From assembly GCA_015179125.1 (NCBI GenBank), contig WHVA01000087.1:124001-188000 (forward strand): a stretch of 64,000 nucleotides of DNA, in the 5' to 3' direction. The translations under genes were made by a program, and so were the position numbers. This document shows, piece after piece, positions 2,494 through 11,600 of the stretch (position 1 is its first letter; each line of letters begins with the position of its first letter). The DNA is from Gautieria morchelliformis. Lineage: Eukaryota; Basidiomycota; Agaricomycetes; Gomphales; Gomphaceae. Below the pieces are notes generated by a model that saw only the letters and a program-made list of their open reading frames with translations, had not been told where the DNA came from and searched no databases.

Positions 2494-2578
2494 GTGTGGC
2501 GTGATCGTGATCGCGTGGGATGATGGATGACCGCCGCGTGATCGTGATCGTGACCGCGTGGCGTAATCGTGACCGCGT
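2494..2578 (+). repeat. GCGTGATCGTGATCG minisatellite, left of the transposon
   Basis: The sequence consists of degenerate units such as GCGTGATCGTGATCG and GCGTGGCGTAATCGTGACC. The same units, in the same orientation, resume at 8071. This is the presumed pre-existing target into which the 2579-8070 element inserted. The last four bases, GCGT at 2575-2578, are repeated at 8071-8074 and are the proposed target-site duplication. Confidence 0.75.
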
Positions 2579-2721
2579 GTACGGTGCCCGACTGGGCTCA
2601 GGTCTATTTCACTTTAGCTATGTGATATTAAGATATTGAAAATTACTTACGATGATCGGTTTTGATCAGGGGTGCCTCACATGGGTCGGGCACCGTACAC
2701 GTGACACCGGCACGCTGCGAG
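2579..2721 (+). repeat. Left terminal inverted repeat, 143 bp
   Basis: It begins GTACGGTGCCCGACTGGGCT and is the exact reverse complement of 7928-8070. Its outer 120 bases (2579-2698) are themselves bounded by a 13-bp inverted repeat, GTACGGTGCCCGA at 2579 and TCGGGCACCGTAC ending at 2698, so each TIR looks like a complete miniature inverted-repeat unit. The final 23 bases (2699-2721) extend the match beyond that unit. These ends are the presumed transposase binding and cleavage sites. Confidence 0.92.
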
Positions 2722-2763
2722 CCGTTCGACGCGTTCCAAATCTAACTTCTGGCCTGGGGTCCC

Positions 2764-2806
2764 GCGTCTCAGACAGTGGACACTTTTTGGCCACTGTCTG
2801 AGACGC
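2764..2806. repeat. Perfect 16-bp-stem hairpin inside the transposon
   Basis: GCGTCTCAGACAGTGG (2764-2779) pairs perfectly with CCACTGTCTGAGACGC (2791-2806) around an 11-nt loop. The hairpin lies between two near-identical 23-bp direct repeats (2741-2763 and 2818-2840, starting TCTAACTTCTGGCCTGG and TCTACCTTCTGGCCTGG). It lies about 335 bases upstream of the kinase start codon. It could be a subterminal transposase site, a regulatory structure or the scar of a small insertion. Confidence 0.75.
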
Positions 2807-2859
2807 ATTAATGTAAGTCTACCTTCTGGCCTGGGCTCCCTTACCGTTGAGGCCTGAGG

Positions 2860-3050
2860 ACTCGCTCGACGTTGCTCTCGGCGACTGGGCTCAGGTATAT
2901 TTGAGGTACGCTGTGATACTAAAAAAGGACATTATAGGAACTTGTCTCATTGCAAGTGTAAGGTCGAGCGAGTGCTCCCTTACCGGTGAGGACTCGCTCG
3001 ACCTTGCTCTCGGCGACTGGGCTCAACTACATTTTAGGTACGCTATGTGA
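2860..3050. repeat. Subterminal repeats related to the TIR start
   Basis: Two copies of a motif resembling the TIR (CGACTGGGCTCA followed by a pyrimidine-rich stretch and TACGCTRTGTGAT) lie at about 2881-2925 and 3011-3050. A 14-bp inverted repeat, AAGGTCGAGCGAGT (2960-2973) and ACTCGCTCGACCTT (2992-3005), overlaps them. Arrays of degenerate end-like motifs inside the ends are typical of transposase-binding subterminal regions of cut-and-paste elements. Their position also makes them candidate promoter elements for the kinase gene. Confidence 0.6.
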
Positions 3051-3140
3051 TGTTATAGGAACATGGCCGATCAGGGGCCGTCCCTGGTCATCTAAATTTA
3101 TCGGTAAGTTTTCACTCGCAAATTCTCCCGTTTGTCCATC

Positions 3141-5479
3141 ATGCAGTGTGACGGCTGTGGACAGATATTTGACCAGAACAACGATCCAACTGTAAAAACC
3201 TGCGCAAAATGTGACAAGCTATCTAAAGCCACGTTTGCTGAGCAGAAGGAGGAGATTAAGGTGAGCTAGAAGTACCCTGCCGTGTTCCTGTAGGCTAACA
3301 TCGCATGCCGCGCAGAAAATGCCGCAATGCACAGGGTGCGGTGCGGTATATTTGAACTTACTTGGCACACGTTGTGGCGCTTGCAAACTGGTGCCAAGTG
3401 AGTGGTGGAGTAGTCGGTATGCACTTGACTGACTTTATGGATAGATAGCAGCCAGTCAACCATGGCGGGGGCTTCCACTGCCGTTATGTCAAGGATGGCT
3501 TCGCACCAGTCACAAGCCACTAATTTCCGTGTCAATGTTCCTGCTAGGCAGTCACCCAACCTGGGACTTAGAAATGCAGCGCAGGCTCGGAACTTGAATC
3601 AGGCCGTTCGTGAGGCAAGCAAGCAGCCCAACATTTCGATTGAAGGTACATTATGGATTTATCCTAGGCATGCTGCGAAGAAGCCTCAGCAGGTGCGTAT
3701 CTCTCTGTGCTTTGGATTATTCCTAAATTCAGAGCATTCCTAGATTTCACATCCCGGCTCCAGGCATGTGGTGCCATATACCACACCAGCCACGGAGGCT
3801 CTTGCCGGGTTTCTTGCAGAATTGCGCAAGGATTATTCAACTGTGCCGTGTGATGATATGGAGGAGCGTCAAGCAATCATGGATTCCATTGCAACGTAAG
3901 TCATTGATTTATGGGCCAGTTAGTAACTGATTGTCTTTGAAGATATGGGCCACATACGACACTTCGTGTACAGAAGGACAATACGACATTGTCTCCCCTG
4001 GCTGTGACAGCCCAGGATTCAACAATACGTGCACTACACAGTCGGTTGTCACAGATTGACGATATTTCCAACAAAGATGCCACAGGTAATAAACTGACTC
4101 TTCGTGCGTATACATGGGCACCACGGCTTGGTGCTAAAAGAGGACGGGATGTAAGTCACAGTGTAATGAACTGGCTGGACTGTCTGACAGATTACTCCCT
4201 TAGCTCTTTGAAGAAGACGGGGAAGACGAAACTGGTGATCATGATAGCATTGGATCAAAGCGTGTCATTCCATCCAGCTCAAGAACACTTCGTGTAAGCC
4301 CTCGCTGTGGACGTGGCAGTAGCCAAGCCCTTTCCCAGCCTTCTTCTTTAACTGAATATCGGAGCACGTATAATGCTGCACTTGCTGCACCCTCCCTCAA
4401 TCTTCCCTTGTCCGCTTTGCGATACGATGCATACCCTTTCTGCCGTGTCACCTGGAAAACTAGCACGTTTGGACAGGTTGAACTGGTATATGGATCAGCT
4501 CAAGAACTCATTCTAGTAGCTAATGACTGGACCTCACACTGCTACCAAAGTGCACCTCGCGGGGGATACCTTGGCCGCGGAATTGAGAAATACGCATTTC
4601 GGGTGAGTCGTGGCGTGTGATGTGTAGTAATGCATTGATGTATCTATTATCAGGGCCGAGTTGCCGAGACTGAACTGGCCATCTTCCAGATCAATCCCCT
4701 CTCCTCACTGTTTATTATGTCAAATGATGACAATCAAGAAAGTCTGTCGCGTGCCTTGACCCACCTAGCCACTGGAGATTATTTCATGGAATCTTTCCAT
4801 CGCCGCGCTGAAGCGTGCAACGTACAACTTCCAAGTGAGTTGTCCAATTGTATCTGCTTGCTAGTGCATCCCTAATGTCTATTTAGGGATGCGCTTTAAT
4901 GCAAAAGGGGCCTTCCTTGGTATAGTAGACCAAGACCGGATCAAGCCACGGCCTCACACAGGGGTTGACAACCAGTCTTTGCAGCATCCTACATTCCTGG
5001 CTGGCCCCCTCTTGCAGCGAGAGTTCCGAAAATACTCTGGATCCGAACGTACTGGGCGCAATGGCGAAACAGGATATGGGGCAGCTGTGGATGCTTTTGC
5101 GCATCATACCGTTATTGACAGCAATAAACAGGTCCTTCTGTGTGACCTTCAAGGTATTCTAACTGATGATGAATTCGTCTTATTTGACCCACAAGTATGC
5201 ATGTAAGTGGTTTGCTCAGAACTGCTTTGAGGCTTATCTCACTTTTTGAAATGCAGCGCCCAGAAAACCGACTCGGGTTCTAGTGCCATCAACACGTTCC
5301 TGAGGGAACATGTGTGGAATCACATTTGCATGGTTTTGAAGCTGCCGGCACATGCAAGATCTTCAGCAAGTGAAGAGCATGCTGAAACGGCTACACAACC
5401 AAGACGTGGGGCTTTGAGAATCGAAGACCTGTTCGTCACACTGTATTGTACTCCGAGCATGACTGACAACAGCCTATAG
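3141..5479 (+). CDS. Alpha-type protein kinase carried by the transposon
   Basis: Nine exons (3141-3260, 3316-3397, 3445-3692, 3744-3895, 3943-4150, 4204-4602, 4654-4834, 4887-5202, 5257-5479) join through 47-55 nt GT-AG introns into 642 residues with no internal stop. Residues 1-65 hold two zinc-ribbon-like CxxC pairs (Cys3/6/21/24 and Cys45/48/60/63). A polar linker follows to about residue 300. The alpha-kinase catalytic domain occupies about 310-600: a GYLGRG segment, then LLCDLQG, LFDPQV and NTFLREH...NHIC, the conserved C-terminal signature. In this family the signature is normally HxCNxxC; here the first Cys is Trp. Alpha-kinases phosphorylate Ser/Thr; the substrate is unknown. The gene lies within the TIRs and converges on the transposase gene, so it travels with the element. 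Confidence 0.85.
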
Positions 5480-5573
5480 TGTTGACAATGAATCAACGTG
5501 ATTGTAGGAGCTTGAGGGTTATGAAAACGTACATAAAACAAATTGCGATTTGGCTATTCCTTCGAGTACAAAG

Positions 5574-5972
5574 TTAACTAAAAGGCCACAAAATATACAA
5601 AAAAAAATATAATTTGTAATTATCGCACACCCCGGACTCCAGATAACGGTCCACCTTTATGTCGACAAAGGCAGGGGAGGGGCCGCGGAACAAATTGACG
5701 AGTGGACCATAGCCAGGTGCGTCCGCCGCAAAGTCGATGTAGGACTGTACAGTGTTTGAGACCTCTAGCCATATTTCAAGGGAACGCGACACGTACCCTG
5801 TATTGGAGCAGAGGGTCGAATCATCCACTGCAATGAGATAGTGGTTAGATATGCTCCAGGAGTGGAAAAGAACCGAAACAGACTTGTTGATCGTCAAGGC
5901 ACTGACAACAATTTTCTCCGCTATGAGTTGGCCGTGGGATCGACACATATTCTTGTCTATGGTATGGGTCAC
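5574..5972 (-). CDS. Small hypothetical ORF between the two transposon genes
   Basis: An open frame of 132 codons lies downstream of the transposase stop, on the same strand, and antisense to the kinase 3' flank. The middle portion is rich in hydrophobic and small polar residues; the last ten residues are aromatic and AT-driven. I recognise no domain. It could be a third cargo gene, an extra 3' exon of the transposase, or a chance frame. An upstream exon joined across 5973-6073 is possible but unproven. Confidence 0.3.
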   Translation of the reverse strand: MTHTIDKNMCRSHGQLIAEKIVVSALTINKSVSVLFHSWSISNHYLIAVDDSTLCSNTGYVSRSLEIWLEVSNTVQSYIDFAADAPGYGPLVNLFRGPSPAFVDIKVDRYLESGVCDNYKLYFFLYILWPFS

Positions 5973-6073
5973 CGAGCGTGAATAATACTGCGTATTGTGA
6001 CAATTTGTCTTCAGCCCTCTGGATGAGGGTAAATATTATTTGAAAAATGATACAAAAGTTGCATTCTTTCCAT

Positions 6074-7718
6074 CTAAATCGTGGTGTGAGTATACATGAT
6101 ACGCATCATTGCTTGAAAGACGGCCCAGACATTCTCTAATGTCACTACCGTCTGTAAAGATTGAAAGGCCGTCTGTGCGTGAGCAGCATATTCAGTGCTG
6201 GAGAACCGAATGATATCCTCCCCACCCAGCTCTTCCTTGAGCTTCCGGATCAATGAAACATCTACCAGCTGCAGGCAATCTTCACCACCATATTTATGTG
6301 GCAATGCCATAGAAATGTTTGGGGCAACCCCTGAAGGGTTTTTCTTACCACGGTCCTTGCGTACATAGTGATTGTTGAAATGATCCCGCAGCTGGTCTAG
6401 CTCTTGTTGAATTAATGTTGGCCAAAGCCATTGCACAAGATCACTCACATGGAAGTAAGTCCAAATATTCAACCTCACAAAATACACTTACTACTGCCGA
6501 TTATCATTGCTATCATAACCATAAAGTTCTGAACCTTTCTGCCACACAACCTTGACATTGTCTCCCCACTGAAGGCGCACACGAAGCCATCCACGCTCAA
6601 TGGTCGTGTTATGAATGCTTGGCAGGAAGCGATGTGCAGGAAGGTCGGTTACTGGTAGTTCTGGGGAAAAGGCCTCACTAGATGTCATCAAAGTTAAATC
6701 AGATTGTAAAATACAGTAATGCAAATATACTACCGTAATGCACTTGCAAAACCATAAACCTGGGTTGTCTCCGATCCACAGTCTGTTGTGGATTGGATAG
6801 GCATTCCTGGATAACCAGTCAGTTTCAGATATCCAGTGACGCAAGAAGTACAAACTTACCACCAAGCTCTTCCACCAACGAAAGATACAGGTAAGCGATC
6901 GCCACTCCAATGCGATTGTTTGGAACTACCCATAGGCCAAGCCATTTTCCTGACCATACGTCCCGAATGCCCCAGACTGGGAAGCCGATTGAACTTAACT
7001 TATCATGCCCATCTCCACTCCACTCATAGTGGGGTCCCGGGACCAGCAATGAGCCACGAGGGACTTTCTTCATGGTGGGATCACGTAATGAAAATCCCTC
7101 GGGGTCTTGGAGGTGCATCTCAGTTTCAACATAGTCTCTGCAAAATCTTCATGAGTATCTTCAAAATATTAAGATATATAGTGCATCTTACCTGGTAAGA
7201 TGCACCCCTTGACTCCTTGCAATGTTTTCTTTGACGATTCGTGGACCGCGTCGCTTCATGGGATCTTTCGCCATCTCGTCCAATACAAGCTGCCGTTTAA
7301 CCGAATCTGGCAATGCCGCAGTTGTTCGTCCGCTGGCTTTGAGTCCCAATTTGGCTCGGCATCTGACAATAGATGCCGGACTATAGCATGATAAAAATCA
7401 GTTTATTCAACACAATAAAATAAAACCGCACCTGATTGACAACTGGTGCTCGGCCTTAAGGAGTTGGCTGAGGGTGTGCTTGTTGATGACACCACGGCGG
7501 TCGTATTCCCGAAGTAGCGTCTGTAGTTGAGGGTCATCACTTGAAGCTAAGCAAAAGGTTAGGGTGAACTTCGCCTGGAAACGCGTTCAGAACTCACGGC
7601 AGTCCTTGTATTGATTTTTCCCAGTTGGGTTTCGGGTATAAGAGCTGGAACTGGCGCCGGAATGTGGCAGATCGCCAATCCTAGGCTCCTCGTCGATCCC
7701 AGCCTCCTCTCGGCTCAT
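6074..7718 (-). CDS. DDE integrase-core transposase (Ginger-like)
   Basis: Seven exons on the minus strand (7718-7598, 7546-7432, 7380-7192, 7137-6860, 6806-6734, 6677-6492, 6443-6074) splice through 48-56 nt GT-AG introns into 443 residues without a stop. The N-terminal half holds a helix-turn-helix-like region (RREYDRRGVINKHTLSQLL style). The integrase core follows with three acidic residues: Asp184 in SGDGHDK, Asp243 in TTDCGSE and Glu286 in NTTIERGW. The C-terminal part has the QWLWP and RDHFNNH segments seen in basidiomycete integrase-core proteins. All three catalytic residues are retained. The start at 7718 was chosen because upstream sequence contains a GTAAGT...CCAG segment; an in-frame ATG at 7841 is the alternative. 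It presumably acts on the 143-bp TIRs. Confidence 0.85.
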
Positions 7719-7927
7719 CGCTGGACAAGAAAGGAGAGTAGTAGTACAACTTACTGCGCCGAAACTAAGTGCAGGAAGCGGCCGCGACGAATTTGAAGAG
7801 TGCGCGCCTGTACAGCTGTTAGTGGCTGTGTTTGCTGCCACAGCGATTCGCGCAGACAGAGGCCAAAAAAGTCAGAGAGCAACGCGTCGCACCGCACGCA
7901 CCGTGCCGCTATCACGTGAGACACCAA

Positions 7928-8070
7928 CTCGCAGCGTGCCGGTGTCACGTGTACGGTGCCCGACCCATGTGAGGCACCCCTGATCAAAACCGATCATCGT
8001 AAGTAATTTTCAATATCTTAATATCACATAGCTAAAGTGAAATAGACCTGAGCCCAGTCGGGCACCGTAC
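7928..8070 (-). repeat. Right terminal inverted repeat, 143 bp
   Basis: Exact reverse complement of 2579-2721, ending ...CGGGCACCGTAC at 8070 and followed directly by the GCGT target duplication. It lies about 210 bases upstream of the chosen transposase start, so it probably also contributes to its promoter. Confidence 0.92.
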
Positions 8071-8413
8071 GCGTGGCGTAATCGTGACCGCGTGGCGTGA
8101 TTGATGATCATCGCGTGATCGTGATCGCTTGGCGTAAGGTCTTCGCGTGATCGCGATCACGTGGCGTCATTGCGTCCGCGTGGCGTGATCATGACGGGTG
8201 GCGCGTGCCTGATCGGCGCCCTGACACGCGTCATCGTGGCTCGGCGATTCTCAATAGCCGCCTGGCGTGCAGTCTAAGCCACGTGCCGGGCGTGTCGTGG
8301 TGTTGCTTGGGTCCCCCGTTCTTCAGGCGGGGCGCCCTCCCTTCCCACATTCGCATCCCAATGCCATTTCGCGTTTTCGTCTAACAGCTTTGTCAGGTCG
8401 GGCGTGACGTAGG
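8071..8413. other. Minisatellite and host flank between transposon and Copia A
   Basis: 8071-8240 continues the GCGTGGCGTAATCGTGACC / GCGTGATCGTGATCG minisatellite. 8241-8413 is unique-looking sequence. Read on the minus strand across the Copia A insertion, it could belong to a short frame starting near 13063, but this is weak. No other gene is visible. Confidence 0.5.
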
Positions 8414-8643: not shown

Positions 8644-11600
8644 CTAGAATAGTCCCATGGCTCGGCGATGCCGTTCCACTGATTCGCGAGGCAAGGCCTT
8701 CATCAATAGGTCCGCCGGCATGTCCTTTGTAGGTACGTAATCCATTTGGATGATTTTATGTGCAACTTTCTCCCGCAGCCAGAAGTACCGTAGATCGAGG
8801 TGCTTCATTCGCCCGTGATGCTCCGGATTTTTGGCAACGGATAGAGCGGACTGGTTGTCGATGCAGAGGTGAGACGGCTTATTTATTGTTGAGCCGAGCT
8901 CATCCAATAAAGTGCGCAGCCAGACGATCTCGGTTCCAGCTAATGCCGCTGCTACGAATTCGGCTTCCGTCGTGGATAGGGTAACGATGTGCTGTAGTTT
9001 GCTGGCCCAACTGACAGCTCCGGTCCCTATTTTAGCGAGGAATCCTGAGGTCGACCGTCCGTTATCCGGATTTCCTCCATGATCGACATCTGTCCATGTC
9101 TGGAACGCTTCGGTAGAGTTGTTTGGTGCAAAAGTGAGTGCCAAATCAGTGGTTCCTTTTAGATAACGAAGGAGATGTTTTACTGCTGCCCAGTGAGCTG
9201 GGCCTGGATTCGAGTTGAACCGTGCGAGGCATCCGATGGCGTAGGCAATGTCGGGGCGGGTTGCGATGGCCAAATAGTTCAACGCTCCGACTGCATTTAA
9301 ATAAGGTAGGCCTCGCATCTCTTCTATCTCCTCAGGCGTTGATGGTCCCATGGTTGCGTTTAGGTTCAATCCTGGGGACATCGGCGTGGTCACAGGGCAG
9401 CAGTCTGACATGTGGAATCTCTCAAGAATTTCTCCGATGTACTGCTTTTGTGTGAGCTTCAGCGTTCTCTGTGAGCGGTTGTAATCCACCTCCACACCTA
9501 ACAGCGACGTTATTTCACCTAGATCCCTCAGCTTGAATACCTTGGCCAATCCCTTTTTCACTCGGTCGAGTTCTGACTTTGAGTTCGATACTAGCGTCAG
9601 GTCATCCACAAATACGGGTATGATGATTTTGGTCTCATCACTTGTCCAGACGTAGATGCTTGGGTCTGATTGGAGGCGCTTGAATCCCAGGCCTTCCAGC
9701 GCTGTCCCGAGTCGCTCGTACCACAATCTCCCACTTTGTTTCAGTCCGTAGAGTCCCCTCTTCAGCTTGCATACCCAGTCCGCACCCCCTTGATGGTAGC
9801 CTTCTGGTTGCTCCATGTATATCTGGGCATCGTCGCTCAGTATTCCGTTCAGGTAAGCGTTGGATATGTCTATGGATTCGATGTACGCTCCCTGAAGCGC
9901 TCCTTGAGCTAGTATGGTGCGTAGCGCTGCCCATCGTGCCGTTGGAGCAAAAACTTCGTCGTAGTCAATGCCTGGCCGTTGCGTATATCCTTTTGCAACT
10001 AGGCCACTCTTGTATTTGTCTAACGTTCCATCAGAGTTGAGTTTGATTCGGAAAACCCATCGTGAGCCTATGGCTTTCTCTCCGGGTGGTAGCTGTACTA
10101 ACTCCCAGGTGCCGTTGTTCAGGAGCGCTTGGATCTCTGCGTCAGTTGAACCTCTCCATATTGGTGCATCAGGGCGCTGCATTGCTTCGGCGAATGTCTT
10201 TGGGACACGGTCATCTTTGATTGTGGCATTGAATGCAAGTTCAACTTCATTTGGTGAGATTGTATACGCTCTAGCAATGTCAGACTCATTGCATATGTAT
10301 TCCAAGGCCTGAATAATTGATGCACTGGCTGCTGCGCCCCCTCAGGGCCTGGGTCATCGTGATCAGGCGGTGGCCTCGGTCTCAGGAACGGGTCATTAAG
10401 GTGCCGGTAGTCCAGCCGTGAGATTGCTCTGCTTGAGCGATGGGGTTGATCGACGGGTGCAGGTGCTGGCGGTAGAGGCAGGGCCTGGTCTGGTTCAGGT
10501 GGAGCAGGGATGACTGGGTCTGGAGTTGGGTCAGGCTGGTGGTCCCCCGGAGGGTCAGGAGCAGGATCGTGCTCGGGAGCGAGCGCATCATCTCCAGGAT
10601 TTCGGTCGGGTGCATCTGGCAGGGTGACGATATTTCTCTCTAATGGAGCGGGTGTGGGTAGGAGTGAACTGTAGTCGGAGGCTTTGGTGGAGAGGCCCGG
10701 GAACTCCGATTCGTCGAAAATGATGTCGCGTGATATGATATAACGCTTTGTGATGGGGTCAAGGCAGCGCCACCCTTTGTAGCCATCCTCGAATCCAAGA
10801 TAGATACATTTCCGAGATCGTGGTTCTAGTCCATTTCTCTCATCCTTCTGTACGTGAACATAGGCAGTGCAGCCAAATACGCGCAACATCCCAAGGTCTG
10901 GCTTTTGGCCATGCCAGGCCTCGTATGGGGTCATGTCTGGCAATGCGGACGTTGGTGTAGCATTGATTATTCGAACTAGTAGTCGTAGAGCGTCCCCCCA
11001 CATCGAAGCTGGGAGACGAGCTTGATGCAGTAGCACTATCGTTCCTTCGATGAGGGTGCGATTGGTACGCTCGGAGATCCCGTTCTGTTGTGGGGTGCCC
11101 TTAGTTGTGTGCTCATGAATTATTCCCCGGCGTCGGAAGTGTTCGTCCCATTTTCTGCCGATGTATTCGCCTCCTTTGTCATCTCTGAATTTCCTTACTC
11201 TCAGGTTCAGTTGGTTTTCTGCCAGCGCCTCATAGGATAGATAGGCATCGAAGACCTCGTCCTTTGTTTTCAAGAGGTATACGCATCTGTATCTTGTGCA
11301 GTTGTCTGTGAAGGTTACCCAGTATCTGTGTCCGGATGACGTCCTGACTGGGAGAGGTCCGTGTACGTCAGATACAATGAGGTCGAGCGGTTTGGAGGAT
11401 TGGTTGTTACTGGCCCCTGGGAAGGGGTCGCGATGCTGTTTTGCAGCAATACAAGGTTCGCAAATGTTGGGAATTTTATCGTTTGAGCTCACGTTTACTC
11501 CTTTTGCCATACCGTTTTCAAGGAGCTTGTCCAGGCGCGCCGATCCGATGTGAGCCAACCGCTTGTGTAGCAACAATCTGTCCACAGCCGGCGATGAGGT

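Follow-up and report, generated by a model that had tools for sequence, protein, structure and literature searches.

The window analysed here, the whole stretch of 64,000 nucleotides from the truffle-like mushroom Gautieria morchelliformis (contig WHVA01000087.1, positions 124,001 to 188,000; contig C970 of the 122-Mb assembly in our analysis), holds a complete transposable element with two genes, one for a DDE transposase and one for an alpha-kinase. Judging from its termini and target site, the element is most likely a two-gene, cut-and-paste DNA transposon of the IS3EU (IS3EU/GingerRoot) superfamily. We show that the alpha-kinase belongs to the element as its stable second gene, and is not a neighbouring host gene, given the genome-wide linkage of the two genes and the inverted repeats that enclose them. 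Taken as a whole, an IS3EU transposon with the kinase as its stable second gene and probable helper in trans is an explanation in which we have high confidence. The exons of both genes are predictions, with no transcript seen. Positions are those of the window.

2580..8069, no strand: complete element, most likely of IS3EU type, ends TACGG..CCGTA, 5,490 bp
3141..5479, + strand: alpha-kinase gene, nine exons, 642 amino acids; predicted by script, frame checked
Alpha-kinase exons: 3141-3260, 3316-3397, 3445-3692, 3744-3895, 3943-4150, 4204-4602, 4654-4834, 4887-5202, 5257-5479
6074..7718, - strand: DDE transposase gene, seven exons, 443 amino acids; predicted by script, set by relatives, frame checked
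Transposase exons: 7718-7598, 7546-7432, 7380-7192, 7137-6860, 6806-6734, 6677-6492, 6443-6074

The genes are convergent and both splice to full, stop-free frames. An earlier note on this DNA had described them as two convergent intact genes, which holds for orientation, frames and Pfam matches and fails at one kinase residue, a W in place of C in the motif H-V-C-N-x-x-C.

Linkage of the two genes recurs across the genome, where we counted at least 56 transposase loci and at least 39 kinase loci by protein search, at least 46 by Pfam and at least 70 in the union. Of these 70, 36 have a convergent transposase no more than 8 kb away (the redundant contig C60 being one of the 36), in four diverged groups. 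Random placement of the 70 and 56 loci, uniform and with contigs and orientation ignored, gave a mean of 0.52 pairs and a maximum of 4 in 2000 draws. Among kinase loci found by Pfam only, in a search not tuned to the window kinase, 18 of 46 are in convergent order with a transposase. The matches listed for Pfam rva_4 gave 62 loci, none of them on C970; all 70 kinase loci are more than 8 kb away from these, and therefore the kinase is associated with this transposase rather than with other integrase-like genes.

Inverted repeats belonging to three families enclose the two genes at 14 of these 36 pairs, and at a further 9 they were found on one side. Among the 14, one end is cut at C2, and both ends were read as sequence in 10, each with its own flanks. 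Whether terminal inverted repeats (TIRs) bound both genes in other copies had been named beforehand as a check, and these 14 convergent pairs answer it in the affirmative. Pairwise distances between transposases and between kinases are also strongly correlated (r = 0.91, a value that none of 9999 permutations reached; based on 21 loci from four groups, with a single locus in one of them), while the compared transposase stretches are 51-67% identical between groups. The proposal that the kinase is cargo moving with the transposase is thus borne out, both by the enclosing repeats across three families and by co-divergence between families, and the counts mark the kinase as a regular component of the transposon and not chance cargo. 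The alternative that a fixed kinase gene of the host lies between transposon repeats by chance could draw on the 28 of 46 Pfam kinase loci that are not convergent with a transposase, but it is refuted by 36 convergent pairs against 0.5 expected and by repeats on both sides at 14 separate places, and we consider it practically negligible.

The kinase has also been constrained over longer distances. Between the window's family and a second one, family B, the proportion of synonymous differences (pS) is 0.81 and that of nonsynonymous differences (pN) 0.38 over 615 codons, at 45% amino acid identity, and therefore the kinase protein is constrained while silent sites are saturated.

The ends of the element and its target site are as follows, where TSD denotes the target-site duplication.

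2580..2721, + strand: left TIR, 142 bp
7928..8069, - strand: right TIR, 142 bp, perfect complement of the left TIR
2574..2579, no strand: left TSD, CGCGTG
8070..8075, no strand: right TSD, CGCGTG
2502..2579, no strand: 19-bp tandem repeat, the insertion target

Counting flank bases, the inverted arms (2573-2721 and 7928-8076) reach 149 nt and are 99% complementary; within the element (2580-2721 and 7928-8069) they match perfectly over 142 bp. The terminal sequence is TACGGTGCCCGACT, and the other end is the complement of TACGGTGCCCGACT. The TIRs had been given as perfect and 143 bp long; they are indeed perfect, the length being 142 bp because the 143 included one base of the duplication. Because the element inserted into a tandem repeat of 19 bp, it is additionally bordered on both sides by a 25-bp direct repeat, and the duplication length cannot be read from the window copy alone; a 25-bp duplication was considered and rejected, the tandem repeat accounting for it.

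The inverted repeat has 22 matches in the genome, and four further copies of the window's family retain both ends, which again read TACGG..CCGTA: C222 (7.2 kb, duplication CCCAGG), C637 (8.5 kb, atcaat/gtcaat), C781 (2.5 kb, CTCGAC) and C51 (1.1 kb, ATTGTC). With the window included, the 6-bp duplication is exact in 4 of 5 copies with both ends, and 5 of 6 bases agree in the fifth. The duplication is thus CGCGTG and not the GCGT reported earlier, which is readable at both edges because CGCGTG includes it. The earlier note had further placed the element among Ginger-type transposons with a 4-bp GCGT duplication, a reading to which the integrase-core transposase and the legible GCGT lend some support. 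We rejected it on the sibling copies, with their 6-bp duplications and TA..TA ends. Moreover, the window transposase has no Pfam domain besides rva_4 at E-values up to 1, and no HHCC, whereas Ginger1 has an HHCC domain (PMC10045372, accessible part). The 6-bp duplication and TACGG..CCGTA ends fit IS3EU instead, although 5-bp duplications, as found in another family here (family A), do not by themselves separate Ginger2 from IS3EU. A Ginger-type identity is, in our view, very improbable.

The transposase itself was correctly described as a DDE integrase-core protein. It matches the Pfam rva_4 integrase core (9.6e-08; 32.4 bits against a cut-off of 26), and its triad is D184, D243 and E286, with 42 residues separating the second D from E. 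In an alignment of 21 proteins (the window's and 20 relatives), D184 and E286 are the same throughout, as D243 very nearly is; rva_4 is found in all 21 and HTH_21 in 4. HTH_21 is typical of IS3 transposases, and its occurrence provides indirect support for IS3EU. There are 185 relatives at E-values of 0.001 or less, and the named ones among the 120 listed appear to come from mushrooms and their kin. Searching Pfam with the transposase exons one by one gave no match, and a search of solved structures with the transposase alignment found no transposase or integrase.

According to the accessible part of PMC10045372, IS3EU elements generally have TA..TA termini, usually 6-bp duplications and an IS3/IS481-type DDE core without HHCC, whereas Ginger elements have 4- or 5-bp duplications. 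The window element, with TA..TA ends, a 6-bp duplication, TIRs > 30 bp and a DDE triad without HHCC, resembles IS3EU/GingerRoot on each of these points; it differs in its accessory kinase, none being mentioned in that part of the source, and in that family A mostly has 5-bp duplications. Ginger1 and Ginger2 share with it an integrase-like DDE core, but neither fits the window's family, given their duplication lengths and the HHCC of Ginger1 (PMC10045372, same part). The closest described system is in rusts, where IS3EU elements have TAYGG..CCRTA ends, TIRs > 30 bp and 6-bp TSDs, and where all TET+ IS3EU families carry a TET/JBP gene between oppositely oriented transposase and alpha-kinase genes (Kojima 2025, PMC12730594, as far as its accessible part goes). 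These TET+ elements are like the window element in ends, TIRs, duplication length and opposed gene pair. They differ in the TET/JBP gene, which was not found in the mushroom families, although its absence is not proven. The part of PMC12730594 available to us does not analyse the kinase, nor does it name an Agaricomycete IS3EU that carries TET/JBP. In the open-access literature, judged by titles and abstract openings, a search for alpha-kinase transposons returned nothing on point besides that paper. Therefore, the earlier note's remark that it knew of no described element of such design is superseded, and the pairing of transposase and alpha-kinase is not new in kind, the rust case being mentioned in PMC12730594 (accessible part). 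What is new here is a mushroom lineage from which our searches recovered no TET/JBP gene, its several families, and a count of transposon-owned kinases.

The second gene had been described as an alpha-kinase with a zinc-ribbon N-terminus. Its C-terminal domain matches the Pfam Alpha_kinase family (PF02816, 7e-16; 59.3 bits against a cut-off of 21.3), and its N-terminus carries two zinc-ribbon-like CxxC..CxxC sets (C3/C6/C21/C24 and C45/C48/C60/C63), both of which recur in the kinase of family B and in a protein from Ramaria rubella. The C-lobe aligns to solved alpha-kinases (4kuj, 7.3e-09; MHCK A, 0.0012), and the motifs (C/V)-D-(L/I)-Q-G, FDPQ and H-x-C-N-x-x-C are retained in most members read. 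The element kinase thus resembles known alpha-kinases (PF02816: MHCK A, TRPM7-type, 4kuj) in its C-lobe motifs D-(L/I)-Q-G, D-P-Q and H-x-C-N-x-x-C, and differs from them in an N-lobe beyond sequence alignment, in the two N-terminal cysteine sets and in being transposon-borne. The window kinase reads H587-V-W-N-H-I-C593, with W replacing the cysteine of H-x-C-N-x-x-C, which is presumed to be a zinc ligand, as in alpha-kinase structures. The cysteine is kept in siblings L023, L024 and L025 and in readable members of the other groups, the W variant being common only to the window copy and the redundant C60 contig. Because one presumed zinc ligand is lost, the window copy probably combines a sound transposase with a weakened kinase.

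Catalysis by the kinase is a separate matter. The protein could be a catalytically dead scaffold or a DNA-binding helper, built from two zinc-ribbon-like sets and a degenerate kinase fold. Consistent with this, sequence alignment of the N-lobe to solved alpha-kinases failed, and the groups read AIFQ, AVFQ, ALFQ and AVLQ at the site where alpha-kinases are expected to have a lysine, though in an uncertain register. However, the C-lobe motifs including H-x-C-N-x-x-C are retained in most members read, and the family B kinase matches the Pfam model over positions 2-185. We hold the dead scaffold to be an unlikely account, if one to be taken seriously.

Several observations weigh against the reading of the element as an IS3EU transposon with a stable, catalytic second gene. 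Of the kinase loci found by Pfam, 28 of 46 have no convergent transposase of this kind, so other alpha-kinase genes exist in the genome. Conversely, no kinase was detected within 8 kb of 15 of the 56 transposase loci; either the kinase is not universal beside the transposase or it is too diverged to detect. Repeats were found on neither side of 13 of the 36 pairs, which are not true negatives since repeats of three families alone were sought. Within family B, the correlation of transposase and kinase distances falls to r = 0.18, a value reached by 1688 of 9999 permutations, and within family A it is undefined. Co-divergence is a between-group signal not demonstrated within groups, and the agreement of kinase and transposase divergence, named in the earlier note as possible support for co-mobility, stands to that extent only. 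Among recent copies, constraint is weak: against L023, L024 and L025, the ratio of nonsynonymous to synonymous substitution (dN/dS) is 0.75, 0.75 and 0.46 for the window kinase and 0.52, 0.34 and 0.35 for its transposase, as expected if some copies decay; premature stops are present in the transposase of L023, L024 and L025 and in the kinase of L025. The failure to align the kinase N-lobe leaves catalysis unproven. The assignment to IS3EU, most likely as it is, derives from termini, duplication length and gene partner. Family A has 5-bp duplications in 4 of 6 copies (CTTAA, CCTGG, CGCAG, CCCGG), a 4-bp one in 1 and none in 1, and no empty site or excision of the element was seen.

Some of the same evidence bears on whether the kinase is a passive passenger, that is, a captured host gene that decays slowly in an IS3EU element without a role in transposition. 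The dN/dS of the kinase among recent copies (0.46-0.75) lies above that of the transposase (0.34-0.52), the window kinase has lost its presumed zinc ligand, transposase loci without a nearby kinase occur, and unrelated fragments also sit in the intergenic region of siblings. On the other hand, the same order and orientation are kept in four groups, at the transposase divergence given above, kinase codons show pN well below pS between the window's family and family B, and an alpha-kinase also occurs in rust IS3EU (PMC12730594, accessible part). We regard passive carriage as improbable.

Under the preferred reading, the DDE transposase would most likely bind the 142-bp inverted repeats and excise the element, by a chemistry expected from the superfamily, and the excised element would most likely be joined to staggered target nicks, giving rise to the 6-bp duplication. 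The kinase most likely acts in trans and would favour the spread of the element through phosphorylation, with the transposase, a partner, or a host protein of silencing or chromatin as its substrate; its zinc-ribbon-like N-terminus may serve to target it. That the kinase is a catalytic helper has, by our estimate, about an even chance, the remainder falling to the passive passenger and the non-catalytic scaffold. The persistence of order, orientation and constraint between groups at 51-67% transposase identity, together with the occurrence of the pair in rusts, leads us to favour a helper over passive carriage.

It is unusual for a cut-and-paste transposon to have a protein kinase among its regular genes, and the function of this kinase is testable. 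Since 18 of 46 Pfam kinase loci are transposon-borne, transposon copies explain part of the alpha-kinase abundance in the G. morchelliformis genome, in line with what the earlier note had suggested for the agaricomycete expansion. For annotators this carries a warning that mushroom alpha-kinase genes, like those found by Pfam in such pairs here, may be transposon property. A bolder proposal is that the alpha-kinase entered the core of a fungal IS3EU lineage, as its second gene, before the rust/mushroom split and has been kept since, that it promotes transposition or disarms silencing by phosphorylation, and that much of the alpha-kinase abundance of mushrooms is transposon-borne; we advance it tentatively, as a possibility that falls somewhat short of even. 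If true, it would reveal a transposon superfamily with a protein kinase as standard equipment.

Turning to the remaining copies of the window's family, a further one, at C2, has its right end cut. C60 was rejected as an independent copy, with 1,507 bp of compared left flank identical to the window, and is a redundant contig or allele. In that copy (L028, ~4015-4185), a GLGLGL run stands in place of part of one kinase exon, probably through simple-repeat expansion or an assembly error. Two short non-autonomous derivatives, L026 (C781:452430-454885, 2.5 kb) and L027 (C51:10019-11135, 1.1 kb), keep both ends and exact 6-bp duplications and lack most of both genes. Between the two genes, the window copy is missing ~1.8 kb that is present at the same place in three siblings.

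5574..5933, no strand: intergenic remnant beside the missing segment; a minus-strand open frame, 5574-6035, crosses it
5933..5936, no strand: junction at which ~1.8 kb of siblings L023/L024/L025 is absent
L023:4438-6204 (C222:6037-7803), L024:5433-7223 and L025:5287-7420: the extra intergenic segment of the siblings

Parts of this segment match separate places in the genome at 89-97% (C737, C944, C468, C2:535476, C1:695090), and its first half differs in L025, which suggests a patchwork of dispersed fragments, as if taken up in a Pack-TIR-like manner. It was also considered as a TET/JBP gene, which we rejected, as eight L023 frames tested matched no Pfam family at E-values up to 1. A whole-genome Tet_JBP search found nothing; control genomes also gave nothing, so absence is not proven.

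Beyond the window's family, family A shows a sharp break at TACGGTGCGTGAGC on the transposase side in 7 of 8 copies, each with its own flank, the match beginning further in at the eighth (C477). The corresponding break in family B, at TACGGTGCCCGAGC, is sharp in 5 of 7 copies, again each with its own flank. Pattern searches for the opposite ends gave 56 hits against 3 with the reversed pattern for family A and 26 against 0 for family B. The script sought 6-bp duplications, the 5- and 4-bp matches having been read off printed flanks; the one family B copy tested has a 6-bp duplication, GTCCAG. Family A, represented at C250, C565, C637:233088 and C327, has the same kind of ends as the window's family; the TA terminus typical of IS3EU is seen on the transposase side in the 7 of 8 copies of family A and the 5 of 7 of family B.

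Several individual loci merit mention. Of the 39 loci that the protein search returned for the kinase, 7 have no transposase neighbour within 8 kb; among these, C42, C43 and C47 stand 0.6-1.7 kb from a family B inverted repeat and C1004:8716 stands 1.7 kb from an inverted repeat of the window's family. Inverted repeats around the C892 pair were rejected, the candidate being one AT-rich 24-bp match in 6.5 kb with a transposase-side end that is not intact. C278:84317-94160 and C332:35369-44447 each contain two mirror-image elements in a span of less than 10 kb, which could reflect separate insertions, inverted duplications or assembly artefacts. Eight similar kinase loci (C898:11148, C366:110048, C1004:53407, C622:34865, C493:22285, C342:11323, C560:246480 and C179:125497) cover Pfam positions ~72-185, share alike internal stops and have no convergent transposase; they are perhaps another multiplied family. 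The cross-species kinase search, with a single protein and then with an alignment, gave 2 proteins among the matches listed. In Ramaria rubella, the best kinase relative (P0001) and a transposase relative (P0051) are both on contigs of 1,021,241 bases and are possibly adjacent. Finally, a 565-aa open frame adjoins the element in the window (8644-10341, - strand), with motifs that resemble the reverse transcriptase and RNase H end of a Ty1/copia-type element.

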